64,000 nucleotides of DNA, taken from NCBI RefSeq assembly GCF_000760295.1, contig NZ_JNBA01000020.1:1-64000 (forward strand), in the 5' to 3' direction. Below the pieces are notes generated by a model, which was given only the letters and a program-made list of their open reading frames with translations, was not told the origin of the DNA and searched no databases. Source of the DNA: Prochlorococcus sp. MIT 0701. GTDB taxonomy: Bacteria; Cyanobacteriota; Cyanobacteriia; PCC-6307; Cyanobiaceae. The position numbers were made by a program, and so were the translations under genes. Positions 2 to 60,784 of the stretch are shown piece after piece (positions within the stretch are counted from its first letter, which is position 1; the number at the start of each line of letters is the position of its first letter).

Positions 2-562
2 ATTTTGAGTCTTAAAGCAGAAGGCTCAGAGATCTTTGAGAATAAATTGGGATCCAAAAACCTGATTACCTATCAAGGGGATTTGAACTACGACGGCCGG
101 GTCTCAATGAAAGATCTGGCGTATCTCAATGCTGGAGCAGCAAGACAACAACTAGCCAGTGAAGGACAAGCAGCTGCTGATGTCAATAAACATGGCCTTG
201 TTGAAGCGAGTGTGGCGCGAGGAGTTGATGCCAACTTTGATGGCCAGATCTCGATGGCTGATTTAGCTGTCTTGGATGCCGATTGGGGCAAAAGCCTGCA
301 TCAAGTACCACAAGCATCAACAGATGCCTTCCTTGGCGAGAGTGAGATTTCGTGGGAGCAATTGGAAAGCCAGGGCACCACAGGCGATACGACCTGGGAT
401 AACCAAGCGTTTAAGGATCAAAACGCCCTAGAAGCCGGCAATGACTTCGTGGAATCACTGGAATCACCAGGAGCTGTGGGTGTGATCGATGCAGATGGCG
501 ATAGCAGCCGAACGGATAACGACATCGCTGGCGACTACTTCCAAGAGCCGCCTACGCCTTAA
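2..562 (+). CDS. C-terminal part of dockerin-like exoprotein (cut by window edge)
   Basis: The reading frame is open from the first bases, so this is the 3' end of a longer gene. The tail closely matches the end of the next gene: both have a GSKNLIT block, then a first loop GDLNYDGRVSMKD followed by the helix AYLNAGAARQ, a spacer of about 35 residues, and a second loop DANFDGQISMADL ending in DWGKSLH. Each loop fits the D-x-N-x-D-G-x-(I/V)-x-x-x-D calcium loop of dockerins. The protein ends with NDIAGDYFQ plus six residues, a tail shared with the neighbour. The two genes are tandem paralogs. The upstream domains cannot be seen. The dockerin-like fold is well supported; binding partner and function are unknown. 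Export by the type I system at 18.7-23.5 kb is inferred from position. Confidence 0.8.
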   Translation: MLSLKAEGSEIFENKLGSKNLITYQGDLNYDGRVSMKDLAYLNAGAARQQLASEGQAAADVNKHGLVEASVARGVDANFDGQISMADLAVLDADWGKSLHQVPQASTDAFLGESEISWEQLESQGTTGDTTWDNQAFKDQNALEAGNDFVESLESPGAVGVIDADGDSSRTDNDIAGDYFQEPPTP

Positions 563-737
563 GCAGTACAAACACACTGCAGGCAAGGTGCCTGAATTGA
601 CATGCGATCTGGGCACATCCCTTTCAGGGCAAGGGTTCAGGCAAGATTAAAATAAGTAAACGTATGGCGAAATGGATTCCAACTGAATATTGCGAGCTAT
701 AATAGATATAGATATAAGTATGAGCCAGAGGGCTGTT

Positions 738-3700
738 ATGACTTCCAGTTGGCCTCAAGGGCAGGATCCAGGCACAGGCAGCGATCTCTACGACGAGAAT
801 GGCGTCCTGATTACACCACCTGTTGGGGGTGCTGGAACCGCTGGAAGTGGTGGATATGGCAGTACAAATACTGGAACCACTGGAAGTGGATATGACAGTC
901 CAAATATGGGCGATACGGGATATGGAACTGGAGAAGGTGGCGAGAGCTCAGGCTCAACGCAATTGGGCTGGGGCTACAGGGGGGATTACAATCAACTAAC
1001 TGATAGTGAAAGCTGGGTAGAAGTAGGCAAAGGGTCCGATACAGCAACAAGTACAGCAACAAAAACCGTTAAAAGTGTTAGCGAATTAAACAATATTCTT
1101 GGAGATATAAAACTTGAAGCAGTTGGAAATCTCGCTGATCAAGGTATAACTAGTATTAATGCAAATGCAACATGGAATATTTACTATAGCCCTATAGACA
1201 CGCAAACAGCTACTAATACTAACCTCAACCCGCTGTCTCAACAGCTCTCAGCATGGGGCTCCTGGTCCGGAAATAATGGTGACACCTTTACTACGAATGC
1301 AGAAGGTGAGTCGATTGCTGAAATAAGTCTCCAAACCAACAACCTCCTTAACGACCTGATCGCGAATTTCGCCCGTAGCAATACTGACAAGAACATTCCA
1401 GAAACCGTCCCAGCCTATAAAACTCCTTTATTTAATCCCACTACATGGGAGTTTATCAGTTCTGACAAGGGTGAGATTTGTCTTAGTTTAGTTGCTACCG
1501 AGTTCAGATACCATGACTGGAAAGGCTTTGATACCCAAGATCCATATTCCTCTAGTGAAACAAAAATCATCAATAATCCTTCAAATGATCCACACCGTGA
1601 CTACGTCAGTATACAAGAAACTACATCTCTAACCCCAGACATAAAGCTTAAATTTGATAACGCATTTTGGACAGAACTTAAAGAACTTGACTCCCAGACA
1701 AATCAACCAGGGGGGCAGCAAGTAGCTGCAGAAGACCTCTCATTTAATTGGGGAGATAAATCTCTAGCATCAACAGGAATTAGCACTGATTCGGAAGGTA
1801 TCAGAGTAATTGATGTAGGAGCCATTAAAGAAGGCGCTGAGACGCTGACTGATTTTTACAAAGAACTAGAAAGTGCACTGGCATTCGATCTTAATGTTGA
1901 CAACTTCAGGAGGGCAGGCAAAGCTAACTTGAACGCTACATTTAGACAAGTAAATGGTTACGAAAGTATAACCCTTTCTGCTGGAGACCATGAAACATCA
2001 TGGACAGACCGCCCAAGTAGTGCTGCTGCAGCCACTAGCTACCAGGATAATGTCATTAATGCAACACTTACTGACGACAAATGGACCGGAACGAGTTTCG
2101 AGCTTGAGCTAAATAGCAAAACTAAAATCAAAGATTTTCTAAGGAAACTTGAAGAAGCACCCTCCGCGGAAACACTATGGAATCTAGATGATTTCTATCT
2201 CAGCACAGGTGAGTTATACCCAAATGGCAATACTGATTTTCCGTCTGGTCCCGGCTCGGCAGATCTAGGCTTTCAATTTAAAACAATATATGATAGCAAT
2301 ACATTTGAACTAGAGAAAAATGAGAGATTAGATGCATCAGGCTTCTCAGAAAATGAGGGTTTAATAGATACAAGTGCAGCAAATGGTCTTAATTTAGATA
2401 TACTCAAGAGTGAAGATTTCTTAGACAAAATCAAGCTAAATCTTGATAAAGGCTATACGAGTAAACTCCCCTCTCTCGGAAGAGACTTCAGTTCAACTAT
2501 TCAATTCGACGTATATGACGCAGGTGACAGGTTAAACAGAACCCTAACCATAAGTTATGACTCAGACAAAGGCGGATACCAGCTTGACAGTAATATTTTT
2601 AAACAAATCAAGGCATCAGTATACGACAACCACAGATGGTCCATTCAAGATGGACGCATGTCGATTGAAGATCTCGAGGCGCGAGATATAACTCTCAAAT
2701 TAAAGCAAGATGGCGACGCCATTAGTATAAACATCAACAATATGGCGGGAAGTGGGGCATCATTAACCCGTCTTTCAATCTCTGATGATGGTGAACTTAC
2801 AGACGGTGAAAGCTACACCACTTCTTATGCTGTTCCAAAAGATGTTGTAACATATTCAACTCCAACAACAGATGTATTTGGGTGGGCCCTAGATGCTAAC
2901 GGGTATGGGTACGACTCATCATTTGCTAGGGTGGACTATACAGATACTCTAGAAACTTGGGAAACAGTCTGGGAAACAGTTACCGAAAACATCAACACTA
3001 AAACCAGTACTAATGAATTTTTAGATTATCTAGCCGACGGTGGCAGTTGGGCTCCCGGAATAATTGAAAATATAGGCGAAATTAAGCTTGAAAATCTTTG
3101 GTCAGCCCCAGACGAGTTGCAAATTTCCTCTCTGAAGGCAAAAGGTTCAAATTTATCATCTGGATCTGACGACGAAAACAGTTTTATTCCAGACCTGAAA
3201 GGCAAAGCCATCCGACTTGATTACAATTTATTCGATAAGCTTGATGATTATGATGGTCATAACTATATCGACCCAGAAAACGCTCTGAGGGAATTAGGTG
3301 TTGTTAGTGTAGAAAAAACCTATCAGGATGATGTCTATGAAAAAGAATACATACTACAGATCACAGCTGAAGCATTGGATGATTATGATTTAGAAGGAGC
3401 AGATATCACTATCGGCTATGACTCAAGAATATTTGAAAGTATCGTTGCAAGTGACATAACTATTGGTGAGGAAATGCCAATAGCCAATGCTATTCAGATC
3501 ACTGAAGGAACAGGAACAAAAGATGCAGATGGTAATTGGACTGATTGGACTAATGGAACAATACGAATAGCCGCCAGCAGTCTCTCGGACATGCTGAAAA
3601 TACCGGATGGAACATTAGATGCAGAAGGAGAAGTCAGCATCTTTGCAGGAGTGGAAGCAGGAGAAGGTATCCCTTATGATCCTAATGGCGATGGTGTCGA

Positions 3701-5078
3701 TGTTTTTGCATCTATTAAACTAAACTTTAACGAACAGAAAATTGAAGAGTTAGGTAGGAACTCTCTTGGTTTGCTGAAAGCTAATCCACTTGAATTCACG
3801 ATTACAGCAAATAGAGATGAGACTATCCTCTCAAAAACCACTACAGATTCAGAGGGATATGTTAATAAGAGTATTCAGAGCCTTAGAGATCTTGGCGATC
3901 AAGAAGGAAGCAGCAAAGTTGCAGCAACTGGCAATGAAGTCACTCTCTTTGAAGCTTCAGTGGTTCTTACCCAAGATACTGGCATCGTTATGGGAACGAA
4001 CCGAACAATCGGTAATCTCGGTTCTGACGCACAATTCACAAACCTCGTTCGTTCAGGGGATACGATTAAGACACTGAATCGATGGACTAATAATGGCAAT
4101 ACTAGAGCTAAAAACATTGAGATTACTGGTATTCTTGAAACTCCAATTTTCGATGATTCTGGGAATAGAATAGATGAATCGGGAAATATAATAACTAACG
4201 CAGCCGATTTGCCAGCCGATTTAACCGATTTAATACTAGGTCAGACCAATCCCTACGCTCAACTCATAGAGTCAGAAAGTTATTTCGAGAATGATGATGC
4301 GGGTGAGAAGAATAACCTTTTAGGCGGAACATACACGGATGGAATCTTGGTTGACACTGAAGTTGAAAGTGGGACAGTCCATGCTGCGATTAAAATTACT
4401 GGTGAGGCAGGTAAAGTTGTAGACCTCAGTGAGGGTATTTATCAGATCCAAGCAGAGGGTGGAGCGGCTCAATTTAATATCGGCCGAGGATCTAAAAACC
4501 TAATTACTTTCGCAGGTGATGTTAATTATGATGGCCGTGTTTCCATGAAAGATATTGCCTACCTCAATGCTGGTGCAGCTCGTCAAGCAAGTGGAACTAC
4601 GCCTCAGACGACAATACCTGGAGCAAACGGAGAAGAAGATACTGTCGTCCCTCAGCAAATTAATGTAAGCGCCAGAGCGCTCGATGTAGATACAAACTTT
4701 GATGGAACTATCAGCATGGAAGATTTGAAAGCTATTGATACAGATTGGGGTAAATCACTACATAATGCTTCCGAGTCTTTTACCGGTATGACCAACGATT
4801 TCTCCTGGGCTCAACTTGATCAACAGTTTTATGATGATGGTTTAGACTCAAGCACCGCTCCTGTAGAAGCCGGTACATGGGATAACACACCTTTCAAGCA
4901 ATCCAATGATATCGAATTCGGTCAAGATGCAGATTATGTAGCACCTCTAGAGGTTGGAGAAGTTGCTGGCACCGCAGTTGGAGGCAATGGTCCGAACGCC
5001 GTGCAAGATCCTCTGGAACAGAACCCTGCAACAACGACAGCAAATGATATTGCAGGTGATTACTTCCAAACAGATTGA
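738..5078 (+). CDS. Large exoprotein with cohesin-like and dockerin-like modules
   Basis: A 1446-residue protein with no recognisable signal peptide. ATG 738 is preceded by AGAGGG at 727-732, better than upstream starts at 690 or 720; a TATAAT at 698-703 could be a -10 box. Order: Gly/Ser/Thr-rich N-terminus (about residues 10-90); long regions of unknown fold; a cohesin-like beta sandwich at about 868-1000, with alternating hydrophobic strands, GADITIGYDSRIFESI, then TIRIAASS and a closing strand VFASIKLNFN; a strand-rich region; then a dockerin-like calcium-loop pair near 1260 and 1318. The C-terminus NDIAGDYFQTD matches the upstream paralog. It lies directly before the giant gene and a type I secretion operon, so secretion to the surface or medium is likely but inferred. 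Base composition is visibly AT-richer than the housekeeping genes. No enzymatic motif was recognised. Confidence 0.8.
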   Translation: MTSSWPQGQDPGTGSDLYDENGVLITPPVGGAGTAGSGGYGSTNTGTTGSGYDSPNMGDTGYGTGEGGESSGSTQLGWGYRGDYNQLTDSESWVEVGKGSDTATSTATKTVKSVSELNNILGDIKLEAVGNLADQGITSINANATWNIYYSPIDTQTATNTNLNPLSQQLSAWGSWSGNNGDTFTTNAEGESIAEISLQTNNLLNDLIANFARSNTDKNIPETVPAYKTPLFNPTTWEFISSDKGEICLSLVATEFRYHDWKGFDTQDPYSSSETKIINNPSNDPHRDYVSIQETTSLTPDIKLKFDNAFWTELKELDSQTNQPGGQQVAAEDLSFNWGDKSLASTGISTDSEGIRVIDVGAIKEGAETLTDFYKELESALAFDLNVDNFRRAGKANLNATFRQVNGYESITLSAGDHETSWTDRPSSAAAATSYQDNVINATLTDDKWTGTSFELELNSKTKIKDFLRKLEEAPSAETLWNLDDFYLSTGELYPNGNTDFPSGPGSADLGFQFKTIYDSNTFELEKNERLDASGFSENEGLIDTSAANGLNLDILKSEDFLDKIKLNLDKGYTSKLPSLGRDFSSTIQFDVYDAGDRLNRTLTISYDSDKGGYQLDSNIFKQIKASVYDNHRWSIQDGRMSIEDLEARDITLKLKQDGDAISININNMAGSGASLTRLSISDDGELTDGESYTTSYAVPKDVVTYSTPTTDVFGWALDANGYGYDSSFARVDYTDTLETWETVWETVTENINTKTSTNEFLDYLADGGSWAPGIIENIGEIKLENLWSAPDELQISSLKAKGSNLSSGSDDENSFIPDLKGKAIRLDYNLFDKLDDYDGHNYIDPENALRELGVVSVEKTYQDDVYEKEYILQITAEALDDYDLEGADITIGYDSRIFESIVASDITIGEEMPIANAIQITEGTGTKDADGNWTDWTNGTIRIAASSLSDMLKIPDGTLDAEGEVSIFAGVEAGEGIPYDPNGDGVDVFASIKLNFNEQKIEELGRNSLGLLKANPLEFTITANRDETILSKTTTDSEGYVNKSIQSLRDLGDQEGSSKVAATGNEVTLFEASVVLTQDTGIVMGTNRTIGNLGSDAQFTNLVRSGDTIKTLNRWTNNGNTRAKNIEITGILETPIFDDSGNRIDESGNIITNAADLPADLTDLILGQTNPYAQLIESESYFENDDAGEKNNLLGGTYTDGILVDTEVESGTVHAAIKITGEAGKVVDLSEGIYQIQAEGGAAQFNIGRGSKNLITFAGDVNYDGRVSMKDIAYLNAGAARQASGTTPQTTIPGANGEEDTVVPQQINVSARALDVDTNFDGTISMEDLKAIDTDWGKSLHNASESFTGMTNDFSWAQLDQQFYDDGLDSSTAPVEAGTWDNTPFKQSNDIEFGQDADYVAPLEVGEVAGTAVGGNGPNAVQDPLEQNPATTTANDIAGDYFQTD

Positions 5079-5277: not shown

Positions 5278-8200
5278 ATGGATGAACAGCTCGCTTCAGT
5301 AAACTGGTCCTTCGATGCAACTAATAAGGATCATGATGCTGTTCAATATTCTTTTTCTGCTCCAGAGATTATTTATGATTCTTCTTCAGGATCATTAAAT
5401 CAAGATTCTGCTTCAGTTACTCTAGACATTGATGATCAGAAGGCTTCACCTACGTGGCAAAATGCTGAATCTATTTCCTTGCAGCAGCATGAATTAGATG
5501 GTTCGATCCGGAAATTAGCCGGTGATGTCCCTGGCCTTGATGTTGATAATCTCTATAATCCTTCTCCATGGGATTCTCAATTAGTCCTGCATGGATCAGC
5601 TTATAAAGCTCCATCTCTTGAGCAGGGTCTGCATTCTACCGATTTGGATCAATCCCCTCCAGATCCAACTCTTTTAGATGCCCATATTGACTTGTATTTT
5701 GATACTTCAGGCTCTAGTCCGATTGAAGCACCAGGACCAACTCAGGCTCCTCCGGATGCTCTTTCTGGTCTCTACATAAGTGCTGAATCAGATTCATTGC
5801 CTCTGATTTCAAATAATCTTTCTCCTCTTTTAGGAGATGAATTCGCCAGTGATCCTTTTCTTGTTTATCAGAATACAGAGCAACTGACTGACGTTTTGTT
5901 GGAAAAGAATCCAAGTTCAGGCTTGGATGATCAACTTCTAATAGATGCAAAGACTCTTTCTGGTCCTGTTTTAGAGGGAGAGGAGTTTCCTTTTAACCCT
6001 TTGCTTGACTATCAGAATGGCGGTCAAGTTGAGCAAGATGAGCAACCATTACAAGTTGCCCTACAACGCCAAGTGCAAGTCCAGGCGCTTGTGGCTGATG
6101 ATGAAGATCGTAAATTAGATACAACCCAACTCCAACCAGTTGTTGATTTCAGCCCTGAAAATGGGAATGCAACTCTCTCTTCAGTTGGAGACTTCCCAGA
6201 CGTAAAAGATAATCTTGATCTTGATACTTTTAATTGGCGTCCTCTTGATCAAGATGGAGCTCCACAGCTCAATGAGCAGGACTCGCCACTCAACATTCCC
6301 TTCAAGGTTGAAGAGTGGTTTGAAGATAAGACCACGCTCATGCCATTGGGAGAGTATCCACCAACGGCTGACGCCAATGGCCCATGGAGTCTTCGTGCTT
6401 TTTCGTTGCCGGATGTGCCGTCTCCGCCTTTGCCTGACTGGCTTGAGGTGATCCAGATGTCTCCGACTCCAGAGCTTGTCGGAGATGGACGCCTTGTGAT
6501 TAGTCAAACCTTTGAATCTGACCCTACGGATTCAGAGAAGCTCTGGTTAGAGATTCATGTTCAAGATCGCCGATCCGATGGTCGCGGCTTGATCGGCCTT
6601 GAGCTTGATCTCAATTGGGATGCTTCAGCATTGAATTTGATTGTTGATCAAAACCGTTCTGCTCAGGTGTTTGAGCGTAATCATTTGCCTCTTTTTCAGA
6701 GTACAGGCAAGCTCACCACACTCCAGCCAGAAACCAGTAGCGATCTACACCGTGAAGCACTTGTTGGCATCGGCGCTGCTGCGCTCCCCAATGCAGGTCT
6801 TGGTCAGTCGCTTGGCAACCTCCGTTCTTCTGATCCGCAAACGCTTTTCGCCCGCTTAGCATTTCAGGTTGAAGATCCATCTCTGGCTCCTGATCTGCAA
6901 ATGCAGGTCACCATGTCGCCAACGAATGGTGGTATCTCTTTAAATGATCAAGAACTACTTGTTCTTGATGGCCATAGCCCTAATGCTTGGATTCTAAAAG
7001 CTCAGCCTACGCAAGAAGAAGTTGGTAGTTATGCCTTTACTCTCCACCAGGGAGAGATCGACAGCAACCTAACGACTCATTTGGCTGTTGCTGTGACTGA
7101 GGTCAATGATGCACCAGTAGCTTTGACAGATGTTGATATTCCTTCTGAATACTTTACACCTGAGTTGAAGCAGGGACAATCACTCAGTCATGATCTTGCA
7201 CGCCTATTTAGTGATCAGGATGATTCTAGCCTTGCTTACAAACTTGTTTCAGCCCCTAGTTGGTTAGAAGTTGATAGTCAAACGGGTCAACTAATCGGTA
7301 TCCCCAATAATTCTGATGTTGGTAGTTATTCTATTACTGTCATCGCCGATGATGGTCGAGGAGGTACAGCTAAGCAGCAGCTTTTGATTGACGTCAAAAA
7401 CGTTAATGATAGTCCTCAGCTTGATTCCTCAGTATCGATTGTACCTCCAAATCTTATCCAAGGAGAGAGCTTTACTTATAGGTTGCCAGAAGGTGCTTTT
7501 GTTGATCCAGATCTGTCTGTAGACCGAGATGAGCAACTTAACTATCAACTTGTTGCAGCAGAAGGTGATCAATCTCCACCGGCCTGGATCCAGATTGATC
7601 ACGCTAACGGAACCCTTACTGGTACAGCGGGGAGCAAGGACGTTGGTACGAATAGGTTTGTTGTCAGAGCTGTAGACGCGGCAGGCCTTTTTGTCGATCA
7701 ATCTGTCAGTCTTACCGTTGAAAATGTTAATGATACTCCTCACCGCACTCTATTGCTTTCTGAATTCTTGGCGGCTCAGCTGCCTACTGCTCCTGGAGAT
7801 GCTCCCCTAGGTGAGGATGATCCTAATGCATTATTTACAGGCTTAGAGCGAATCATTGATTTAAACACTTGGTTCAATGATCCAGACCTCAATGTCGTGC
7901 CTGGTGAGGAATTAGAACTTCATGTTGAGCTTGATATTGGAACTGGTCAAGCTATTGATTTGGCAGACAATGATCTTTCTCAAGATCAACGACCAGAATG
8001 GCTCAGTTGGGATGAGAATTCAGGTCTGCTAAAAATCAATCCAAGTGTTGGAGAGATTGGTCAGCATATCCTGCGCGTCCGTTCTACGGATTCGGCAGGC
8101 CTTAGTGCATCAGCGATTGTTCCTCTACTTGTTCGTCATCGTAATAGTGCCCCTGTTGTCAGCTTTTCCAGTGCAGAAGATTTTCTTGCCTCTTTGAGGA

Positions 8201-11200
8201 CAGAAGGCGTTAATAGTGCAACAGCAATAACCTCCTCTAAGGACAGTAATCAATCCAATCAACTCAGTGGTTTGCAAATTACAGTGGCTGAGGAGCAAGA
8301 TGTATTGCTGGAACTTCCTCGCTCTCTTTTCTCTGATTCGGATTTGATTGTTAGTGGGTCTGAGAAGCTAACTCTTGAGCTAGAAGGCTCTCCACAACTA
8401 TTTAGGAGGTCTACAGATAATTCTCCCCCTCCCTTTAAATTTGATCCTAAAACATTAACTATAAAAGGTAATACCTCTGGCCTTGGCCTTGATGAGTATG
8501 GCGGATTGAGCCAATGGCAGGTCCGCTTAATTGCTACTGATACTTCTGGTGAATCAGCCAGTTTTGATCTATCACTTAACCTACAGCGCACTTTTGCTAC
8601 CCCTGAGCTTGTAGCTCTAGATGATGTTACTAAGAAACCAGAAGGGTCCCTCGTTCAACTAAATGATCTCGTCAGATTCTCTCTTGATCCACGAGATGGT
8701 GAATTGGTCCACCTCACAATTAAACAGCCGCTAGGAAAACAACAACCATTAAATCTTGTAGAAAGAGCTGGAATTGATGTGGTCAATTCCAGCTATTCCA
8801 GTACTCAACGTCAATGGCAAATTAGTGGATCTGCAGAGCAAGTTAAAGCTGTTATCGATGGTTTGCAATTTAAAGTTCCTGATGATGATCATGCAATCGG
8901 GGATTTTAACTTAGATGTTTCAGTTCAAAGTGAGCTTGGCGATACAGGCCTTGTCTCTGATGTTGTCACTCGTTCTGTAGCGTTCACTCTTGAGCCAACT
9001 GCCAATTCGCCCCTTTGGACAGGCATCACGACTCGAGAGCCTTCAAGCGAAGATTCATTCGAATTGGTCTCTCTAGCAAGCCAGCTATTAGCCAATAGTG
9101 TCGATCCACGCGAACAGCTTAGTTATCGCGTTGAATTGCCAGCTAATCGTCCTGACCTCTTGCTAACTGATCAAAGCGGTGCCGCAATCGGCGAGCGACA
9201 AGGTGATTTACTTTTGCTGAGTTCAAAGGAGTGGCAGTCAGCATGTCTTCGCAGCACAGATGCTGCTCACCAAGATGCTTCTCTGATTGTTGAAGCGATC
9301 AGTACTGAAGCCAGCAATGGCATGCAAGCTTTCTCTTCAGCTAAAACTCTATCTACTAAACCTTGCCCATTTTTAAGCCAACCTCCTGAATTGCTCATGA
9401 TGCCACCATTGGGCATTCAGCGCTCTGGTGAAGAAGCAAAGTTTCAACTTGAACTCAATTTGCCAGATGCTGCAAAGAGTTTGCGATTGCAACTCGACTT
9501 ACCTGTAGATAGCGCTATCAACATTGAAGGAGCTGCAATCAGTTCAGAACAATTGCTTGGTCAGTCAGGAGAAGCTATTGCCGAACGCTTCTTTATTTCT
9601 TTCGATAGCGAACAGCGGCCTCTGCCAGATCAACTTGATTTGGGTATCATAAGTCCTGAAAGTTTTAAAGGTAGTTTTGATGGTCATTTAAGTGTATTGG
9701 CTTCCGCACGCTCTGTACTTAATGACCATATTGATTCCCAAAAGTTGGCAAATGAACTCTCAAATGGACTTGCTTGTGAGGTTGAAAATCTTTCTTTTGC
9801 CTGGGATGTTGCTCAAGTCGCTCTTGTTCCTGAATTCATCACAGAACCACTTGAAGGCGAACCTTCTCTAAGTTTCAACCCTGAAACAGGAGCCCTAATC
9901 GTTACTGTCCAGCGAGGGCTTAGCTCAACAGGTCAGCAGAATCCAAATGAAGACCTTACTCTGGCAGTTATTAATATCCCGCCTGGCTATGTATTAGCAG
10001 AAAAGCTGAACGATACCTTCCAAGCTGTTGGAGCCACAGATGCCTTTGGCACGATGACATTGTTTACCTTGAGTTCTAGTGATACACAGCAAGGCGCTGA
10101 TTCAGTTGGTCATACAACGCTTAATGATGGAAACCTTTTCCTAGTAGCTACAGATAGGAATGCGGTCAGCCTTGATGGTGCTTCTCTGAATCTGGCGCTC
10201 ACTGCCCGTATTAGTAACCAGCCAGGTGGTGATTCTAGATCTGAAACCATTAAGCACCAGCTTAATCTCTCACCCATAAATGGTGGGTTACCTTCTGTAC
10301 AGAGGTTGTCTGCAGCAACACGATTTGTTGACCCTTTGATTCTCGACTTTACAGGCAAGCAAGGCCTGCCTCTTACTTCTTTGGCTAGTGATGGTAGTGG
10401 AGTGAGCTTTGAAATGTTGCCGGATAGCCCTGCCGTACCAACTGCCTGGCTTAAATCAGATGCGAATGCAAATGGCCAATTAAATGCCGGATTCCTTGTT
10501 CTCAACGATATCAGTAATGATTCTGCTAATGCTGATATAAATATCAGCTCTATTAGCGAGCTGCTTTCGGAGTATTTTCAGACAGATAATCGCCAACGTA
10601 GTTTTCTTTCAGGTAGTTCGGCTCTTGCCAGTCTGGATGCTAATAATGATGGACTGATCAATAGCCTTGACTCATCTTGGAATCAGTTGCAGATTTGGTT
10701 CGATGATGGTGATGCAATCAGCGAAGTCGATGAGCTACAACCCCTCAACCAGTTTCTTGACTCTATTGACCTAGACACGCTAATTACACTCGCCGAGCAG
10801 CCTGAATGGGCAGCAGATAATGCTGTGTTGCGTCGCCTAAGTGGTGCCAGTCTTGCTGATCCAGCAGCTATCTACGATCTTTATGACGTCGGTCTTCGTA
10901 TCGCGCCCGCATTTACTGCAAAATTAGACCTTCAATTAGAAGGCATAGAACTTCAGAAAGCTGGCGATTCTGAAGAGATAGCAAATCAAGGAGATCTTGC
11001 AGTTAATAAAATCTCTTTATTGAAAACAAGTCTTGAGCAAGTTACTGATGAATTAACTACAGGCCTTGAATCACGTTTAAGTCGCCTTCATTTACAGGAA
11101 AATGGTAACCCTGTTCCATTGAAGTTAAGAAGCAAGGACAGTGTTAAATGGTCTGAAAATGGCTTGGATGACTTCACTTTGGTGCGCATGTCAGGTTTGC

Positions 11201-14200
11201 CTGCTGAGATTATTCCTTCCGTAGGTGTTCGTGATTCTCGAGGCGATTGGTTGTTTACATGGTCTGAACTAAATGCTAATGAAGGACAAGTCGAACTGAT
11301 CCCCGGTCAAAACTGGAGTGGCAATGCAAATTTGCAGGTTTTAATTAGTCAGTTACAACCTGATGGCTCTTTGCTTAGTTCTGCCCTTACAAGCATGGCT
11401 TTAGATGTTGTGGCAGTTGCTGATCAGCCCTTGCTGCAATTGAACAATGTAACCATCAATGAAGATCAATCCCTAGCCTTGAATCACATCCTTAAGCGAG
11501 CAGAGCTTCTTGATGATGATGGTTCAGAAACCTTGCATTACGAGTTAAGTGCAATGCCAGAGGGAGTTGTATTGCAACGCATGGTGGCTGGTGAAGAACC
11601 GATTGTTTTAGATTCTGAAGACGGTATCTATCGGTTCAGTTCTCAAGATCTCGACGGAGTTGAATTGCTTACTGCAGAAGACTTCTCAGGACTTTTGCAA
11701 TTCAAATGGCATGCTGTTGCAACAGAAGCTTCCAACGACAGTATCAGTCGCACTAGCCAGGATGTCCTGATAACGATTCGAGCGATAGCAGATAAGCCCT
11801 CTGATGTTGTTTACACCGAGTCCCCCCCTGCACTTTTGGAGGGAGGTTCTGTTTCTCTGTCTAGCTTGATCAATCAATCAACTCCTAGTTCAGGGCTTAA
11901 TGACTTAGATGGTTCCGAAGAATTACGCCTTGAGTTCAAGTTGCCCCAAGGCCTTGCATTGAAGCATCAAAGTGATGATGGTTGGCAACCGATTAGCTAT
12001 CTAAATGCTGATGGTGAGCAGATTGTAATGATAAGTGCTGATGATTTTTTAGAGTTGCAACTGGTAGACAAAGGGATAGAGCAAGTCGACAGCTTTAGTT
12101 TGTCTGTCTCAAGTGTCAGTCGCGAGATTAGCAATGGCAAGCTGGCTCGTAGTGAGTCTAAAGAGCTGACTCTTGGTTTTATCCGCAATGCAAGAGCTGC
12201 TAAGATTACTCTTCTAGATTCTCCTACTATTTTAGAAGATACTGATGGGGTAGATCTTAGCGATCTCGTTCAGGTAGTAGCGGCTAATAATAAGGATATC
12301 CTTAGTTATCGCATCTCTGAAATATCAGAAGGCCTCAAGCTCATCGATCCTGATGGTCAGGTTTTTCTACCAGCCAAGCTCAATAATACATTCAATCTGT
12401 CGAGCCTAGATGGTTGGCAATTGCAAACAAATCAACATCAGGCTGGTCAATTTGGTTTTGACCTTGAAGTGATTAGCAAGGCACCTGTGGATGGTGGCAA
12501 GTCAATGACAGTACTAAAACATGTCAACTTTAATGTTAAAGCAGTTGCCGATATGCCAACCCTTCTGCTTGACCAGTCTGAAGGTGAAAAATTACTAATC
12601 GAGAGCAATGGATGGTTGAATTTGAACAACCTAAAACCGATCGTCAGCTCTCCTGATAGTGATCAATCGGAACGCCTTTCTCTTTTGATCGGTGCTCTTG
12701 ATGTTGATGGAGAGCCCGTTAGCCTGCCATCCCATAGCCGCTTTAATGTTCCCGCTCGACAATTAACAGATGGTCGCTGGGAAATTCAAGATGATGATTT
12801 TGATGGTCTCAGTCTCTATCTTGGAGAAATTGCTGATGATCTAACAATTACTTTTACTCCTACATCTCATGATGGGGATGATCAAATTCATGCAGAAATG
12901 ACAACAATTACCGTTGCTGCTAACTCTGTTACCCAGATCCCCCTGCTTGAGGTGCGTGGAGTCATGGAAGGCCTGGAGGATTTACCAATCCCATTACTTG
13001 CTCAATTAGAAGGTGTCATTAATGCTCAGCTACGAGGAAGAGGAGTCGGCCAAACATTAGAATTGGAAATTAGCGGTTTACCTGAAGGCTCTAAGTTTGT
13101 CCGTCTTATAGATGGTGATAGTGATTCTTTGACTTCATCGTATAGCCAACCAGTGAACACCAATAAAGATAATCAACTAACATCAACGTTAAGGTTGCCT
13201 TATGTGCAATGGCAACAAATGCATTGGCTTGGTCCTGCGAACCAGTCTGGCGAATTTAGTTTTAACGTTCAAGCCTTTAGTGTTGGCAAAAATGGCGATG
13301 TCTTGAGTACGGATATGTCAACGGTTAAGGTTTTCTTGACTCAATTCAATGATAAGCCTGAGATTATCGATGACAGTGATCTAAGGGCTATAGAAGAGGG
13401 GGAGAGTGGCCAATGGGATTTGTTATCCCGTTTTAGAGACGTCGACAATAGCAAAAGTGAGCTTTCAATTAGTGTCAACACTCTCGATGAGAATGGAAGT
13501 ATTGGTGAACTACCAGGCTGGCTTAGTCTTAGTTCAGAAGGGATCTTAGCTGGAAGTCCTAGCAATGTAGACGTTGGCATGCTCAAATTCTTGATTACAG
13601 CTAGCGATCCATTAGGTCAAGTAGAAACGATGAAACTTAGCTTGGACGTTGGAGATGTAAATGCAGAGCCAACTTTTAATAAAGCAGCTTTAAGTGATTG
13701 GGACATTGTAAGTAAGGATGGCAATGATGTCTATAGCCGCAGCCTTGACCTAAGGCAGCGAATACTTATAGACCTTGAAAAGGCATTTAATGATGAGGAT
13801 GAAATTAATGGTGATCAACTTACCTACACGTTTAGTGATGGTGCCAACGGATGGAGCTCAGGGTTAGATGGTTTGGCTACTATAAAAGATGGTGAATTGG
13901 TTATTCAGGCTATAGGCAAAGAGAACGTTGGCTCACATTCTCTGCGTCTGCGAGCGACAGATCAAATGGGAGCGAGTATTACAAAAGAGCTGAATATCAA
14001 TGTACTTAATATCAATGATGCACCAATTGTTATACGTGATAATGCCACCCTTGTTCGGGAAGGTGTCTGGGAGGAAAGAGTCCAGGTTGATCAAGATCAG
14101 GAATCTTGGCAGCTTAATCTTGAGGGGCTATTTAGTGATGCTGATATCACTGACCGCATTGACCAGATAACTCCGTCTTTTCTTCCAGCTTGGCTTCAAT

Positions 14201-17200
14201 ACACACCTTCTACATCTACTACTGGTGGAGTACTCAGTGGCAAGCCTGGAAATCGAGATGTTGGTACCACGTCCTTGGAATGGCAGGCGGTTGATGATGC
14301 AGGCGAAGTCGCTACTTATCGCCTTGATCTCGAGGTCGTCAATGTTAATGAGACTCCAGAGGCCATTGCCAACCCTGATTTGTCTGAATTAGGTGTCGTA
14401 CAAAATGGAGTCGCCACTATTGATGAAGACAGCTACTCCCGCCTAGACTTGTCGAAACTATTTACGGATAGCGACAGTATTCATGGTGATTCACTTGCTT
14501 ATGAAATCACAAAGATACTTAAGGAAGGTAGTCAGACTCCGCAGGTGGTTGATTGGTTGGGTATCGAGCATCGCAGCTCGATCACGCCTGACGCTAGTGG
14601 CAAACTTTTGATCGAGCCAGTTTTCTATCGAGTCACTGAATCTGGCACTCTAGGAGATGCTGTCCCCCCTGATGATATAGACAAGCTAGAAAAGAATACA
14701 CTGCTCAGAGTCTTAGTTGAAGCGACAGATGATCGTAATACAGAACTTAAAGGTGTGATTGGTGCTGATCTAGATGTAACATGGAGTTCTGCACTTTCCC
14801 TTGTCAAAGACAGTGCTGTGATTACAAATTCGCTACCTCTATTTCAATCAATTTCTGAAACAACCAATGGTTTGCGTATGAAGGCAGGCTCTGCTCCTGA
14901 TGGAGGATTGTCTATAGGGGAAGCTGTAGGCAATAACCCCAAGGACAGTTTGTTGAGTTTTGATTTACTGCTTAAAGATCCAGATGAAAAAGTTCTTGTA
15001 AGCCTAAATAGAGGAAAGGGGCTTAATCGTGATGGTCTTAATGGACGACTTGGTGAACAGTTTGATTCCGACAATAGTGTTGTCCATTCTTTCTCCAGTC
15101 AGGCTGGTGCTGATGTTCAGGTACTTGCGCCTGAAAATGCTGATGTCGGTAATTATATTGTAACGATTACAGCAACTGATCAGGATGGCAAAAGTGTAAG
15201 CGCAGATGTGCCATTGCTGATTTCCAACACTAATGACGCTCCAGAATTGATAAAGAATGCAGAGAACATCCTTGCCAAATGGCTTGCTGAACAACCTCAT
15301 CTAGAACACAACAATGACACCACTCCTTTGGTTAAATTGTTTAAAGACCAGGATCTGATGCATGGAGATAAACTCGATATAAGGCTTATTGAAGCACCAG
15401 CACAAGATTCTCAGCAGAATGCTGTTGCTAATAGCATTGTAGAAATAACATCCGAAAATAATGGCAATATCAGCCTAAACCTGCAACCGCCTAGAGGCAT
15501 TACAAGTATTTATGAGCAAATGTTCCGCTTAGAAGCTACAGATTCTGATGGTGCTACAACTAATACAGAATGGCTTACTGTTGCAATTACACCGTCTGCG
15601 GAGGCTACTGTTCTTAAAAGAGGCTCTGATAAGAAGATATTAGATTCCCAAACTATCGGTACTATAACTAAGAAGAATATAAATATTGATCTAGGCCAAG
15701 CCTTAAATATTAATGCACCTGAACTAGTTGATCAGGCTGGAGATGAGGCAGAGTTGAGATTTCTTGTTAAGTCAGCAGATGCAAAGTTGGTTCTAGAAGG
15801 CACTGATGATCAGGATTTCTTTGAGGTTAATATTAATGGCAATGGACAATCAATCTTTAGTGTCAGCCTTAACAAGCTACAACAGATTTCTGGCAACACT
15901 TACGGCAATCTAGAGAATCTAAAGCTATTACTAGCTCCCAACCAAATAGAACTTTTGCCTACTGCCTTAAGTGCAAAACAAGTTGGCGGGATTCCTTTGA
16001 AGCTATGGACAACAACTCATGTTAAAGGTGATACTTCCAAACAGTTTGGAGAGATCCAGAGCGATTATTCAGAAATTTGGATCCCTATAGAGAATGCTGC
16101 CCCAACTTTTAGCTCGGTTAAGCCTGTAAAAATTAACCAGGACTTCTTTTCCCAGGATTCCTTCGCTCCAGATAAACCTCTCTTCTCACTCATGAATCAG
16201 TTTGCTGACATTGATTCAGGTGATACTGCTAATTGGCAAATTGAGGTCCCACAAAATTTGCAAGGCATGCTCAAGCTAGATGAGTCCACTGGAGATATCA
16301 GTTTCACAAGCAAAGTTAATTCCTTATCAGATCTACCAGAAGGTAATCATAGGATTATTGTTAGACAGATCGATAGTTCAGGCAGGCTTGGAGATTCAAC
16401 TGGTATTAGCAGTGGAACAGTTCGATTGTTTGTTGCTTCAAGCCATGAGGATGATTCATTAATAGGCGGCTTAGACTTGCTAACTAGAGGCGATGGGGGT
16501 GAACTTAAGCAAATATTTAGTAGGCTTTCAGCAGGTGAAGAACTTAAGCAGCAGGAAGCAGAGGTTGTGGATATTTTTGAAAGGCTTCAGGTAAAAAGTG
16601 ACAAGAGGCAGGAATTTATTGAGGAGTTAGAAAAAGGTTCTTTAGCCATACTTGGCAAGCCAGAGAATGGAGAGCCTCTGTTGTTGCTGGATGCTTCCTA
16701 TGATGACAACAGCTTACTGATTAATTCTGAGCAGAAAGAAGCATCTACAGAACTTTTGGACAAAGCGAAGGACCTGCTCGATAGTCAGACAATCACAGAA
16801 ACACCTATGGGAGAATTGGATTTTTCCATAGATATTCAAGGAGAGAAATCAAGCATCGTTCAGATCCGTCTGGAAAATGGTGGTATGGATATAGATGATC
16901 TTGTAAAAACAACAGCTAGCGGAACTCCTTACTTATTTAATTCTCGCAAGCTAACCTATGACTCTAGCAAGGATGGAGAGATGTCAGAGTGGCTTTCTGG
17001 CCTTGCTTATGATGTGTATTTCTATGGCCTCCCAAATGGATCAAAGGCTAGCTCCTTATCAACTGGCATAAAACTCCGCAAAGAAGATGATTTTTCACAA
17101 GCGTTGTTAAGCCAAGGCTTTAGCAGCGATTACCTGCCACGAATGGATGGATCTGGACTACTGATTGACTTGGACGGAGATAATACTACTGATCTGATTA

Positions 17201-18687
17201 GTATGCTGCTTATTGATCAGGGATTCTTTGATACTGATCAACGCTTAGGAGTTATTGGTGATCCACTGATACCTGTGAAAACCTCTGATCTGACTCCAAA
17301 ATCAGCAGTAACGAGTGGTAATAGTAACGATTTAGGTGTCGGAGTTGGTCAGACCTCTAATAACCGTAGGCGTCAAGATTCTGGATATCCGGACATACAA
17401 GATCCCATCGATACTTCTCAAGATGCAACTAGCAATCCACAAAATCAGGCTACTTCTTCTCAAGATGCAACTAGCAATCCACAAAATCAGGCTACTTCTT
17501 CTCAAGATGCAACTAGCAATCCACAAAATCAGGCTACTTCTTCTCAAGATGTAAGTAGTGATGATCCACAAAATCAGGCTACTTATTCTGAAGAAATAGA
17601 TGATTCTTCAATTTCTGATGAGGAATTTATAAATGATCAAGCTAGGACTTCTAATTCTAAGTCTTCACTACCATCAGGATCGCCGCAAGGCGTTAAGCCC
17701 GACAATAGATCAATTAATAACAGCATTGGGAATCGATCCATGCAGAGTTCAAATTCCTCAAACTCTTTGAGCGGCTTGACCTCAGATAACCTCAACAGTA
17801 ATAGAAGTTCTGAGTCTCTTGCTTCCGAGCAGGAACCAGATGGTTCATTACAAACAAATGATGAATCACTAGCCTCTCAAAATCAAGCAGTAAAAGCACA
17901 ACGTACCAATGCATTGTTCAACAATTCATTAGCATCGGTACAAGACTGGATGCAAGCCAGAAAGGAAGACGCTCTAGGGGCTATCAATTCATTGATGGCC
18001 CCTATTGAAGATTCCAATCAAGCTTCGATGGCAGGAGCTATCGCACTGCTATTAGCTCCAATACTAGGTGAAAGACTGCTAACAAATACTGCAAAAGCTA
18101 TGGATACTAATATTACGTTAAAGTTACGGCGACGAGGTGAAAACTTTAAAGGTATTTGGACTATGCCTACACGTGATGGCCGATTCATTTCTATCAGTAA
18201 GGATTGCTCCGCTCTTGATTTTAATCCTATAGATATATCAGAAACAGATACGATGCAGATTCAAATGCTTCCTGGCTTTAATTCAAATGGAAACTCGCTA
18301 TTAAGCCTTGCCATGCCTCTGATGCGAAGTCCAGGTAGATTCATACATTCAGTACAAGCTTTATCTCAAGAACTGGTGAATAATCCAACCCCAGATATTA
18401 ATTGGGATGATTGGATCAATCGCTCATTTAGCCAGCATACTAGGAATGGAGACCAGCCTCGCGAAGCTAAAAAAGCTTTGACTGAACTGCGACGACTTGT
18501 TGATCAAGCGATTCAGCAAGACCCTGCTTTCGCAGACGTTGTAATGCTAAGCCAACTTCATGACTGCAATTCTCTGCTTGGATTATCAACTAAGCCTCAT
18601 GCAGACCCTTCTAGTAAAACTTATTCCGACGTTGTTCCTGATCAAGATGTTGGGAAAGCTATTACCTCATCTAACTCCGCAAAATGA
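5278..18687 (+). CDS. Giant 4469-residue modular surface/secreted protein
   Basis: One uninterrupted frame of 13.4 kb. No classical signal peptide. Visible modules: a cohesin-like domain near residues 420-580 (GLIGLELDLNWDASALNLI, then HLPLFQS) and a similar one near 3140-3270 (GVIGADLDVTW, then SLPLFQS); several cadherin/putative-Ig repeats of the form PSWLEVD..TG.L.G.P...DVG.Y...V.A.D..G ending in NVNDAP (near 650-960, 2740-3030 and 3290); a block near 1684-1822 like the calcium-binding domain of RTX-type exported giants (PLILDF, DANANG, then LDANNDGLINSLD and IWFDDGD); and DLDGDN near 3960. After 4015 comes a Ser/Asn/Gln-rich stretch with 42-bp repeats, a hydrophobic segment (GAIALLLAPILGERLL) near 4250, and a basic C-terminal domain of unknown type. 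No GGxGxDxUx nonapeptides were seen. Giant adhesins of this build usually leave by type I secretion, and such an operon follows 56 bases downstream. Adhesion or cell-surface matrix is an inference. Confidence 0.88.
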   Translation: MDEQLASVNWSFDATNKDHDAVQYSFSAPEIIYDSSSGSLNQDSASVTLDIDDQKASPTWQNAESISLQQHELDGSIRKLAGDVPGLDVDNLYNPSPWDSQLVLHGSAYKAPSLEQGLHSTDLDQSPPDPTLLDAHIDLYFDTSGSSPIEAPGPTQAPPDALSGLYISAESDSLPLISNNLSPLLGDEFASDPFLVYQNTEQLTDVLLEKNPSSGLDDQLLIDAKTLSGPVLEGEEFPFNPLLDYQNGGQVEQDEQPLQVALQRQVQVQALVADDEDRKLDTTQLQPVVDFSPENGNATLSSVGDFPDVKDNLDLDTFNWRPLDQDGAPQLNEQDSPLNIPFKVEEWFEDKTTLMPLGEYPPTADANGPWSLRAFSLPDVPSPPLPDWLEVIQMSPTPELVGDGRLVISQTFESDPTDSEKLWLEIHVQDRRSDGRGLIGLELDLNWDASALNLIVDQNRSAQVFERNHLPLFQSTGKLTTLQPETSSDLHREALVGIGAAALPNAGLGQSLGNLRSSDPQTLFARLAFQVEDPSLAPDLQMQVTMSPTNGGISLNDQELLVLDGHSPNAWILKAQPTQEEVGSYAFTLHQGEIDSNLTTHLAVAVTEVNDAPVALTDVDIPSEYFTPELKQGQSLSHDLARLFSDQDDSSLAYKLVSAPSWLEVDSQTGQLIGIPNNSDVGSYSITVIADDGRGGTAKQQLLIDVKNVNDSPQLDSSVSIVPPNLIQGESFTYRLPEGAFVDPDLSVDRDEQLNYQLVAAEGDQSPPAWIQIDHANGTLTGTAGSKDVGTNRFVVRAVDAAGLFVDQSVSLTVENVNDTPHRTLLLSEFLAAQLPTAPGDAPLGEDDPNALFTGLERIIDLNTWFNDPDLNVVPGEELELHVELDIGTGQAIDLADNDLSQDQRPEWLSWDENSGLLKINPSVGEIGQHILRVRSTDSAGLSASAIVPLLVRHRNSAPVVSFSSAEDFLASLRTEGVNSATAITSSKDSNQSNQLSGLQITVAEEQDVLLELPRSLFSDSDLIVSGSEKLTLELEGSPQLFRRSTDNSPPPFKFDPKTLTIKGNTSGLGLDEYGGLSQWQVRLIATDTSGESASFDLSLNLQRTFATPELVALDDVTKKPEGSLVQLNDLVRFSLDPRDGELVHLTIKQPLGKQQPLNLVERAGIDVVNSSYSSTQRQWQISGSAEQVKAVIDGLQFKVPDDDHAIGDFNLDVSVQSELGDTGLVSDVVTRSVAFTLEPTANSPLWTGITTREPSSEDSFELVSLASQLLANSVDPREQLSYRVELPANRPDLLLTDQSGAAIGERQGDLLLLSSKEWQSACLRSTDAAHQDASLIVEAISTEASNGMQAFSSAKTLSTKPCPFLSQPPELLMMPPLGIQRSGEEAKFQLELNLPDAAKSLRLQLDLPVDSAINIEGAAISSEQLLGQSGEAIAERFFISFDSEQRPLPDQLDLGIISPESFKGSFDGHLSVLASARSVLNDHIDSQKLANELSNGLACEVENLSFAWDVAQVALVPEFITEPLEGEPSLSFNPETGALIVTVQRGLSSTGQQNPNEDLTLAVINIPPGYVLAEKLNDTFQAVGATDAFGTMTLFTLSSSDTQQGADSVGHTTLNDGNLFLVATDRNAVSLDGASLNLALTARISNQPGGDSRSETIKHQLNLSPINGGLPSVQRLSAATRFVDPLILDFTGKQGLPLTSLASDGSGVSFEMLPDSPAVPTAWLKSDANANGQLNAGFLVLNDISNDSANADINISSISELLSEYFQTDNRQRSFLSGSSALASLDANNDGLINSLDSSWNQLQIWFDDGDAISEVDELQPLNQFLDSIDLDTLITLAEQPEWAADNAVLRRLSGASLADPAAIYDLYDVGLRIAPAFTAKLDLQLEGIELQKAGDSEEIANQGDLAVNKISLLKTSLEQVTDELTTGLESRLSRLHLQENGNPVPLKLRSKDSVKWSENGLDDFTLVRMSGLPAEIIPSVGVRDSRGDWLFTWSELNANEGQVELIPGQNWSGNANLQVLISQLQPDGSLLSSALTSMALDVVAVADQPLLQLNNVTINEDQSLALNHILKRAELLDDDGSETLHYELSAMPEGVVLQRMVAGEEPIVLDSEDGIYRFSSQDLDGVELLTAEDFSGLLQFKWHAVATEASNDSISRTSQDVLITIRAIADKPSDVVYTESPPALLEGGSVSLSSLINQSTPSSGLNDLDGSEELRLEFKLPQGLALKHQSDDGWQPISYLNADGEQIVMISADDFLELQLVDKGIEQVDSFSLSVSSVSREISNGKLARSESKELTLGFIRNARAAKITLLDSPTILEDTDGVDLSDLVQVVAANNKDILSYRISEISEGLKLIDPDGQVFLPAKLNNTFNLSSLDGWQLQTNQHQAGQFGFDLEVISKAPVDGGKSMTVLKHVNFNVKAVADMPTLLLDQSEGEKLLIESNGWLNLNNLKPIVSSPDSDQSERLSLLIGALDVDGEPVSLPSHSRFNVPARQLTDGRWEIQDDDFDGLSLYLGEIADDLTITFTPTSHDGDDQIHAEMTTITVAANSVTQIPLLEVRGVMEGLEDLPIPLLAQLEGVINAQLRGRGVGQTLELEISGLPEGSKFVRLIDGDSDSLTSSYSQPVNTNKDNQLTSTLRLPYVQWQQMHWLGPANQSGEFSFNVQAFSVGKNGDVLSTDMSTVKVFLTQFNDKPEIIDDSDLRAIEEGESGQWDLLSRFRDVDNSKSELSISVNTLDENGSIGELPGWLSLSSEGILAGSPSNVDVGMLKFLITASDPLGQVETMKLSLDVGDVNAEPTFNKAALSDWDIVSKDGNDVYSRSLDLRQRILIDLEKAFNDEDEINGDQLTYTFSDGANGWSSGLDGLATIKDGELVIQAIGKENVGSHSLRLRATDQMGASITKELNINVLNINDAPIVIRDNATLVREGVWEERVQVDQDQESWQLNLEGLFSDADITDRIDQITPSFLPAWLQYTPSTSTTGGVLSGKPGNRDVGTTSLEWQAVDDAGEVATYRLDLEVVNVNETPEAIANPDLSELGVVQNGVATIDEDSYSRLDLSKLFTDSDSIHGDSLAYEITKILKEGSQTPQVVDWLGIEHRSSITPDASGKLLIEPVFYRVTESGTLGDAVPPDDIDKLEKNTLLRVLVEATDDRNTELKGVIGADLDVTWSSALSLVKDSAVITNSLPLFQSISETTNGLRMKAGSAPDGGLSIGEAVGNNPKDSLLSFDLLLKDPDEKVLVSLNRGKGLNRDGLNGRLGEQFDSDNSVVHSFSSQAGADVQVLAPENADVGNYIVTITATDQDGKSVSADVPLLISNTNDAPELIKNAENILAKWLAEQPHLEHNNDTTPLVKLFKDQDLMHGDKLDIRLIEAPAQDSQQNAVANSIVEITSENNGNISLNLQPPRGITSIYEQMFRLEATDSDGATTNTEWLTVAITPSAEATVLKRGSDKKILDSQTIGTITKKNINIDLGQALNINAPELVDQAGDEAELRFLVKSADAKLVLEGTDDQDFFEVNINGNGQSIFSVSLNKLQQISGNTYGNLENLKLLLAPNQIELLPTALSAKQVGGIPLKLWTTTHVKGDTSKQFGEIQSDYSEIWIPIENAAPTFSSVKPVKINQDFFSQDSFAPDKPLFSLMNQFADIDSGDTANWQIEVPQNLQGMLKLDESTGDISFTSKVNSLSDLPEGNHRIIVRQIDSSGRLGDSTGISSGTVRLFVASSHEDDSLIGGLDLLTRGDGGELKQIFSRLSAGEELKQQEAEVVDIFERLQVKSDKRQEFIEELEKGSLAILGKPENGEPLLLLDASYDDNSLLINSEQKEASTELLDKAKDLLDSQTITETPMGELDFSIDIQGEKSSIVQIRLENGGMDIDDLVKTTASGTPYLFNSRKLTYDSSKDGEMSEWLSGLAYDVYFYGLPNGSKASSLSTGIKLRKEDDFSQALLSQGFSSDYLPRMDGSGLLIDLDGDNTTDLISMLLIDQGFFDTDQRLGVIGDPLIPVKTSDLTPKSAVTSGNSNDLGVGVGQTSNNRRRQDSGYPDIQDPIDTSQDATSNPQNQATSSQDATSNPQNQATSSQDATSNPQNQATSSQDVSSDDPQNQATYSEEIDDSSISDEEFINDQARTSNSKSSLPSGSPQGVKPDNRSINNSIGNRSMQSSNSSNSLSGLTSDNLNSNRSSESLASEQEPDGSLQTNDESLASQNQAVKAQRTNALFNNSLASVQDWMQARKEDALGAINSLMAPIEDSNQASMAGAIALLLAPILGERLLTNTAKAMDTNITLKLRRRGENFKGIWTMPTRDGRFISISKDCSALDFNPIDISETDTMQIQMLPGFNSNGNSLLSLAMPLMRSPGRFIHSVQALSQELVNNPTPDINWDDWINRSFSQHTRNGDQPREAKKALTELRRLVDQAIQQDPAFADVVMLSQLHDCNSLLGLSTKPHADPSSKTYSDVVPDQDVGKAITSSNSAK
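8766..8794. repeat. Perfect inverted repeat, 12-bp arms
   Basis: AGCTGGAATTGA (8766-8777) and TCAATTCCAGCT (8783-8794) are separated by five bases, inside the giant gene. A 12-bp perfect arm this close is not expected by chance in 64 kb. Confidence 0.85.
10525..10557. repeat. Interrupted inverted repeat, 14 bp paired
   Basis: GCTAATGCTGATAT (10525-10538), a two-base AA turn, then ATATCAGC, a three-base bulge TCT, and ATTAGC (to 10557). It lies in the giant gene just before its EF-hand-like calcium segment. Confidence 0.75.
17419..17589 (+). repeat. 42-bp in-frame tandem repeats in giant gene
   Basis: Three identical 42-bp units at 17419-17460, 17461-17502 and 17503-17544, then a diverged 45-bp fourth unit to 17589. 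Each unit encodes QDATSNPQNQATSS. The perfect identity means recent expansion, and the unit length keeps the frame, so copy number can change without breaking the protein. The repeat forms a flexible polar linker between the calcium-binding part and the C-terminal hydrophobic segment. Confidence 0.95.
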
Positions 18688-18743: not shown

Positions 18744-19493
18744 ATGCAGGAAGCTTTGGAGAAAACGCTGATGCAGCAAGTTGCCTTGCACGGACTTTTG
18801 CAATCCCTCATAAGAGCCCAGGCTGAATTCGAATTTATTAACCAGTATGAATTGGATGATGAAGGGCAACCAATAGATGATGAACAAGCAGTCTCTGCAT
18901 TAATAAAAGACTTAAAAATCCCCAATCAACAAGCTCTTCAAAGCTGGAGAAATAACCATCTACTAAATGGTGACGACGATAATTTCATTAGTTATGCCCA
19001 TAATCGACTTAAACGTAAGCGAGTAATCGACAAGCTCATTACAGGTAATGGTGAGTCTTTATTCTTGCGCTATAAGGATAGGCTAGACCGCGTTCTCTAT
19101 AGCCTGATAAGAGTTGAATCTGAGGATCTTGCCTATAACCTTTATTATTCTATTGAGTCTGGAGAAATAGAATTCGGCTCTGCTGCAGAGTCCCACAGCT
19201 GTGGACCAGAATCCAAAACTCAGGGAATCATTGGACCTGTTGATCTGACAACACCTCATCCAGAGGTCGCTGCAAGGCTTCGTACTGCTTCTGCGAGGCA
19301 GTTATTTTCACCTTTCCAAGCTGATGAATGGGCTGTGATTGTGCGACTTGAATATAGATTTGATAGTTCTTTTGACGAATCCACTAAAGACTTTCTAGGG
19401 GGACTGTTGTTAGGAAGTAAGTCTAAGGAAATAGGGGACAAAATCTCGCGATATTATCTTGACAAGGAGGATTCGGACCTTGCAGCTGACTAA
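18744..19493 (+). CDS. Parvulin-like (SurA/PpiC-type) isomerase of the secretion operon
   Basis: A 249-residue protein with an all-alpha N-terminal half (about 1-140) and a C-terminal half resembling parvulin rotamases: SIESGEIEFGSAAESHS, a loop ending QGIIGPVDL, then ARLRTASARQLFSPFQADEWAVIVRLE, matching the usual GG-lG-p...al....G.vS.Pv....g.hii.v pattern. No signal peptide, so it probably acts in the cytoplasm or at the membrane. AAGAGG at 18735-18740 precedes the ATG closely. It overlaps the ABC transporter start by 14 bases, so the two are translationally coupled. Such isomerase genes beside HlyB/HlyD pairs are common in cyanobacteria; a role in keeping large cargo export-competent is inferred. 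Whether it keeps isomerase activity cannot be told from sequence alone. Confidence 0.7.
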   Translation: MQEALEKTLMQQVALHGLLQSLIRAQAEFEFINQYELDDEGQPIDDEQAVSALIKDLKIPNQQALQSWRNNHLLNGDDDNFISYAHNRLKRKRVIDKLITGNGESLFLRYKDRLDRVLYSLIRVESEDLAYNLYYSIESGEIEFGSAAESHSCGPESKTQGIIGPVDLTTPHPEVAARLRTASARQLFSPFQADEWAVIVRLEYRFDSSFDESTKDFLGGLLLGSKSKEIGDKISRYYLDKEDSDLAAD

Positions 19494-60710: not shown

Positions 60711-60740
60711 AAAAAACCCCGTCAAGTAAACCTGACGGGG
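60711..60740 (-). terminator. Intrinsic terminator of psaA-psaB
   Basis: On the minus strand CCCCGTCA (60740-60733) pairs with TGACGGGG (60724-60717) and is followed by TTTTTTCTT. It lies 45 bases after the psaB stop. Confidence 0.93.
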
Positions 60741-60784
60741 AATATCTTTGTGCCATGGAATCGGCTAACTAGCAAGCAAGGGTG

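Follow-up and report, generated by a model that had tools for sequence, protein, structure and literature searches.

Dockerin-family tails on exoproteins beside a giant cadherin-repeat protein in Prochlorococcus sp. MIT 0701 suggest a non-cellulosomal cohesin-dockerin system

The window, i.e. the whole stretch of 64,000 nucleotides analysed here (positions 1 to 64,000 of contig NZ_JNBA01000020.1), opens with two plus-strand exoprotein genes. ORF1 (2..562, 186 aa) encodes the C-terminal fragment of a dockerin-tailed exoprotein; its N-terminus is missing at the start of the window, which is the end of the contig (C20), and the N-terminal part probably lies on contig C51. ORF2 (690..5078, 1462 aa) encodes a second dockerin-tailed exoprotein with TTG as its listed start, an ATG a few codons downstream being possible. 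On the same strand follow the gene of a giant protein of 4469 aa with He_PIG/cadherin repeats, a candidate scaffold (5278..18687), a PpiC-type PPIase-like protein (18744..19493; 20.3 bits, cut-off 21.7), an HlyB-type ABC exporter with a C39-like domain (19459..22383) and an HlyD-type membrane fusion protein (22380..23495). The first-pass annotation of this DNA had placed the tandem exoproteins beside a type I exporter; the exporter is indeed present (19459-23495), but the 13.4-kb giant gene and the PPIase gene intervene. About 260 residues preceding the C39-like domain of the ABC exporter match no family. Furthermore, the window encodes a PsaA/PsaB protein.

As had been described, there are two D-x-N-x-D-G-x-(I/V)-x-x-x-D loops at each C-terminus: at nt 80 and 227 in ORF1 and at nt 4518 and 4689 in ORF2. 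The ORF1 dockerin (80..304) consists of loop 1 with its putative helix segment (80-151), a linker containing a degenerate third loop, and loop 2 with its putative helix segment (227-304); in ORF2 (4518..4766) the two segments of loop and putative helix lie at 4518-4589 and 4689-4766 on either side of the linker. Loop 1 and the segment after it are near-identical in the two proteins and the linkers are unlike, in agreement with the first-pass annotation, whose claimed loop spacing of 55-60 residues holds for ORF2 (57) and fails for ORF1 (49). The degenerate third loop of ORF1 reads DVNKHGLVEAS and corresponds to DANGDGFVDAS in a further copy on contig C32. Residue shuffles of three proteins gave a mean of 0.006 loop matches as compared with 5 observed. 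Elsewhere in the six frames of the window the strict motif was found at 10636 inside the giant and nowhere else. This lone calcium-type loop (DANNDGLINSLD) has no second loop next to it and gives a weak Dockerin_1 match.

ORF1 matched the Dockerin_1 profile (PF00404, cut-off 22.9) with 32.8 bits, its tail alone with 37.8 bits and the C32 copy with 23.6 bits, while ORF2 alone stayed under the cut-off at 18.6 bits and reached 28.1 bits together with its neighbours in frame. The best-matching stretch of ORF1 takes in the degenerate third loop. Dockerin_1 matched all 16 homologous tails of alignment A3 and was the best family, ahead of the generic EF-hand models, of which EF-hand_5 matched 13 of the 16. 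A profile search of solved structures with A3 yielded cellulosomal enzyme or scaffoldin chains at ranks 1-9, with both calcium loops aligned to them in the alignments printed, and generic EF-hand proteins from rank ten on. The first-pass annotation had named a search against dockerin and EF-hand profiles as a test that could overturn the dockerin reading; Dockerin_1 came out best, and a thrombospondin type 3 identity was rejected, this family being absent from those matching the tails.

A typical dockerin packs its two loops into about 60-70 residues, joined by a short linker. The copies in the window have an expanded linker, and their loop-to-loop periods of 49 and 57 exceed that of a typical clostridial dockerin; in distant relatives such as L080 the linker is short. 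Altogether, an assignment of the ORF1 and ORF2 tails as dockerin-family modules appears well supported by the profile comparisons.

The dockerins end a longer C-terminal unit consisting of a cohesin-like domain, an intermediate region, the dockerin and an acidic tail. In ORF2 these parts correspond to the cohesin-like first domain (aa 889-1062, 3354..3875), the intermediate region with an NLVRSGDT motif (aa 1117-1266, 4038..4487), which is conserved across the aligned units, the dockerin, and the acidic tail ending in AGDYFQTD (4887..5075), whose sequence is common to ORF1 and which may possibly act as a type I export signal. Upstream of the unit no recognised domain was found in ORF2, and likewise in several other proteins carrying the module. 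Among ten units the mean identity amounted to 80% for loop 1 with its following segment, 66% for loop 2, 31% for the linker, 38-39% for the other domains and 24% for the extreme tail, the least conserved part. This pattern would fit a conserved binding surface; calcium-driven folding would be expected to conserve the loops too. An AlphaFold model of the whole ORF2 unit (five sequences) reached a mean pLDDT of 39, with low confidence at the loops and the dockerin region.

Further copies were found in the same genome. A third dockerin tail belongs to a 3092-aa protein on contig C32 and is 80% identical to ORF1; the units of this protein (2587-3087) and of ORF2 (858-1460) are 40.6% identical. Contig C51 ends in a fragment that has RCC1, cadherin and lectin domains upstream and reaches unit position 304, and ORF1 starts at unit position 325; because these positions nearly abut, both are probably parts of one gene. 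Contig C9 (L117:3678-9830) has the fourth unit, which is broken off by the contig end before the dockerin and belongs to a protein with an FGE-sulfatase domain, a DUF1565 and a weak GH141 match.

A cohesin in the first domain of the unit was at first suspected by eye and then put to a Pfam scan. When this domain was scanned in isolation, two relatives exceeded the cut-off of Pfam Cohesin (PF00963) with 27.7 and 25.1 bits vs 24.1, and two further relatives matched below it. The corresponding domains of ORF2 and of the C32 protein gave no direct Pfam Cohesin match; that of ORF2 is counted as cohesin-like because it is homologous to the relatives that do match. A profile search of the PDB with the first domain found nothing. 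In the relative L071:837-4277 the cohesin-like domain of the unit is interrupted by pentapeptide repeats.

By comparing the giants that occupy the same position across genomes we found a conserved domain, present in two copies in each complete giant examined. In the window these are domain A (aa 403-545, 6484..6912), classed as cohesin-like from an AlphaFold model and fold comparison, and domain B (14644..15144), which matched at E 9e-44 a profile that includes B itself and was reached at 1.6e-4 by a plain search with domain A. At the level of sequence, profile searches against Pfam and the PDB recognised no cohesin in either domain (one of 11 members at E 0.29 vs PF00963), and PF00963 searched against the genome of the window at E 10 gave no match. 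A profile-profile comparison of the first domain of the unit with the domain of the giant resulted in E 2.2e-5 and a probability of 76%.

In the AlphaFold model of domain A, most of residues 14-156 were predicted with confidence. With this model, Foldseek returned C. perfringens cohesins as best matches (E 2.4e-3; none below 0.001), and eight of the ten best VIA-align rows were cohesins with a top Z of 8.8, the remaining two being a C. perfringens chitinase. An alpha-2-macroglobulin domain came next at Z 8.2, i.e. within 1 Z of the cohesins, and rows within 1 Z count as tied according to the guidance of the tool. Therefore, we grade a cohesin fold of domain A, as judged from the predicted model, as likely and not as proven. 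A pointer to cohesin came solely from this fold comparison and from the Pfam scan of the isolated unit domains of relatives.

Among 350 Cyanobiaceae genomes the unit was found in 13, the domain of the giant in 10 and both in nine. Fisher's test for this co-occurrence gave 3.6e-14 by genome and 4.1e-9 by genus, values that ignore relatedness and linkage, come from a search profile built from several of the same genomes and are inflated by linkage and shared ancestry. In four genomes (G112, G253, G276 and G360) the unit is present and the domain of the giant absent even at E 10; two of them, G112 and G253, are over 90% complete, and in G253 the match is limited to the later part of the unit. Conversely, G254 (230 contigs) contains the domain of the giant, and no dockerin tail was found in it. 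When 194 genomes of the class were searched for the unit's first domain, two Cyanobiaceae had it and a single genome besides gave a weak match; the viral contigs searched contained no relatives.

The usual locus consists of one or more dockerin proteins and the giant, followed in the window by the PPIase and the type I exporter. A dockerin protein adjoins the giant in the window and in G219, G020, G237, G071 and G287, which represent several genera. The genes 3' of the giant in G071 and G287 have the sizes of the PPIase and exporter genes of the window, a likeness by size alone. In G090 and G013 the dockerin protein has as its neighbour a cohesin-like gene encoded on the other strand. Dockerin proteins also occur away from the giant in G071 (about 330 kb) and G287; the C32 protein is on a separate contig from the giant in a fragmented assembly, so that linkage is still possible.

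The cargo of these proteins varies between strains. It comprises haem peroxidases (twice in G071, and in G287, G090 and G112), multicopper oxidases in copies away from the giant (G071 and G287) and RCC1 (G020). The C32 protein combines beta-propeller repeats, RTX and a lectin with an M10 match under the cut-off (18.5 vs 24) and a HEFGHALGLKH motif. Recognised plant-wall enzymes were absent from the proteins scanned, the weak GH141 match on contig C9 being the only one of its kind.

With moderate confidence we favour a non-cellulosomal cohesin-dockerin system, probably exported by the type I route, that assembles exoproteins on the giant scaffold and/or on each other. We infer the export route, the calcium dependence, the scaffold role and every pairing in the following scheme. 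The type I system of the locus would export the large exoproteins, the dockerin proteins most likely leaving through this very exporter, and external calcium would then fold the dockerin. The folded dockerin would bind the cohesin-like domains in the giant, making this cadherin-repeat protein an extracellular scaffold, and possibly also those of sister exoproteins, leading to chains. The first-pass annotation had suggested an assembly role unrelated to cellulose, which is now backed by the cohesin-like domains in the unit and in the adjacent giant and by their co-occurrence across genomes. The assembly reading is favoured because of the Dockerin_1 tails, the Cohesin matches of the unit in two relatives, the predicted fold of domain A, the co-occurrence, the gene neighbourhood, the loop conservation and the enzyme cargo; against it we counted that sequence searches do not recognise the domain of the giant as a cohesin, the near-tie with alpha-2-macroglobulin, the low-confidence dockerin model, the four unit-only genomes and the inflated co-occurrence statistic. 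Taken by itself, the proposal that the cohesin-like domains are the partners of the dockerins is moderately supported by profile and model comparisons. A more specific version, which we put forward tentatively, is that oxidative and proteolytic enzymes of picocyanobacteria are assembled into extracellular complexes via a dedicated cohesin-dockerin pair, on a giant scaffold secreted by the type I route, with a plug and a socket on each exoprotein that would allow chain growth too.

Since the cohesin-like domain and the dockerin stand together in the unit of most proteins, they might instead pair intramolecularly within one polypeptide and form a folded C-terminal cap without any inter-protein assembly. 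The four genomes with the unit and without the domain of the giant would suit such a cap; nevertheless we regard it as unlikely, for it leaves the cohesin-like domains in the adjacent giant and the shared occurrence of both unexplained. Alternatively, the loops and the acidic tail could serve type I export or post-export calcium folding, the likeness to dockerins then existing without a binding partner. The C-terminal position, the linkage to a type I exporter, the acidic tail and the conserved loops are consistent with this function, but the conservation continues past the loops into the residues that follow them, identity is lowest in the extreme tail, RTX repeats are already present in several cargo proteins and cohesin-like domains co-occur, which together make it quite unlikely. 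Finally, calcium repeats of a generic EF-hand or thrombospondin type 3-like kind, with only the appearance of dockerins, would account for the EF-hand_5 matches, the third loop in the ORF1 linker and the long periods, but are very unlikely given that Dockerin_1 matches every member and is the best family, that the best solved matches are cellulosomal chains aligned over both loops and that the linker is short in relatives such as L080.

To our knowledge, dockerins outside cellulosomes mostly have no known partners. Here, a plug and its candidate sockets are encoded in a single locus of planktonic phototrophs that live aerobically, and the cargo includes identifiable enzymes. This arrangement suggests that these phototrophs assemble oxidases, proteases and lectins extracellularly for purposes unrelated to cellulose. 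If the favoured reading is true, cellulosome-style assembly would extend to proteins secreted by the type I route and to the oxidative and proteolytic reactions that picocyanobacteria carry out outside their cells. The locus itself falls outside the definition of a cellulosome, as neither a scaffoldin with recognised tandem cohesins nor plant-wall degrading cargo was found.

Non-cellulosomal cohesin-dockerin pairs are already known, best from the enzyme complexes of C. perfringens (Adams et al. 2008, via PMC12997984), and it is the picocyanobacterial version that appears to be new; the open-access papers searched for dockerins in cyanobacteria, Synechococcus or Prochlorococcus contained no account of one. 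In C. perfringens, too, secreted proteins carry single cohesins or dockerins without a classic multi-cohesin scaffoldin, and one protein is reported with both (PMC12997984); moreover, it is among C. perfringens cohesins that the domain of the giant has its best fold matches. However, the C. perfringens complexes consist of glycoside hydrolases from a Gram-positive bacterium of the gut, whereas in the picocyanobacteria a type I exporter and a giant protein of cadherin repeats go together with oxidases, an M10-like protease and lectins. Cellulosomes, amylosomes and mucinolysomes share with the present system dockerins on diverse secreted proteins, a cohesin-bearing partner (here a candidate one) and partly dispersed dockerin genes (PMC12997984); unlike them, it has no tandem cohesin array, lacks recognised plant-wall enzymes among the proteins scanned, and combines a dockerin and a cohesin-like domain on one polypeptide. 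Marine Synechococcus is known for giant exoproteins such as SwmB and for the M10-domain exoprotein of WH7805 (PMC4949707). These secreted proteins are likewise of very large size, contain cadherin and peptidase domains and were detected in exoproteomes; the likeness is one of description, and the main text of that paper does not mention dockerins (PMC4949707).

Several related sequences were noted in the course of the searches. In another cyanobacterium, the locus L012 (G048:C1, about 60398-62796) gave seven strong Dockerin_1 matches, of which three fall in adjacent genes. A contig titled as a Pedosphaera MAG (L085, NYYT01000062.1) encodes a giant 50% identical to that of the window in domain A and was probably misbinned, coming from a picocyanobacterium. 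In a further cyanobacterium (L088, G479:C1:3310784-3311218), a Pfam Cohesin match above the cut-off lies within an open frame that runs for 36,883 aa without interruption.
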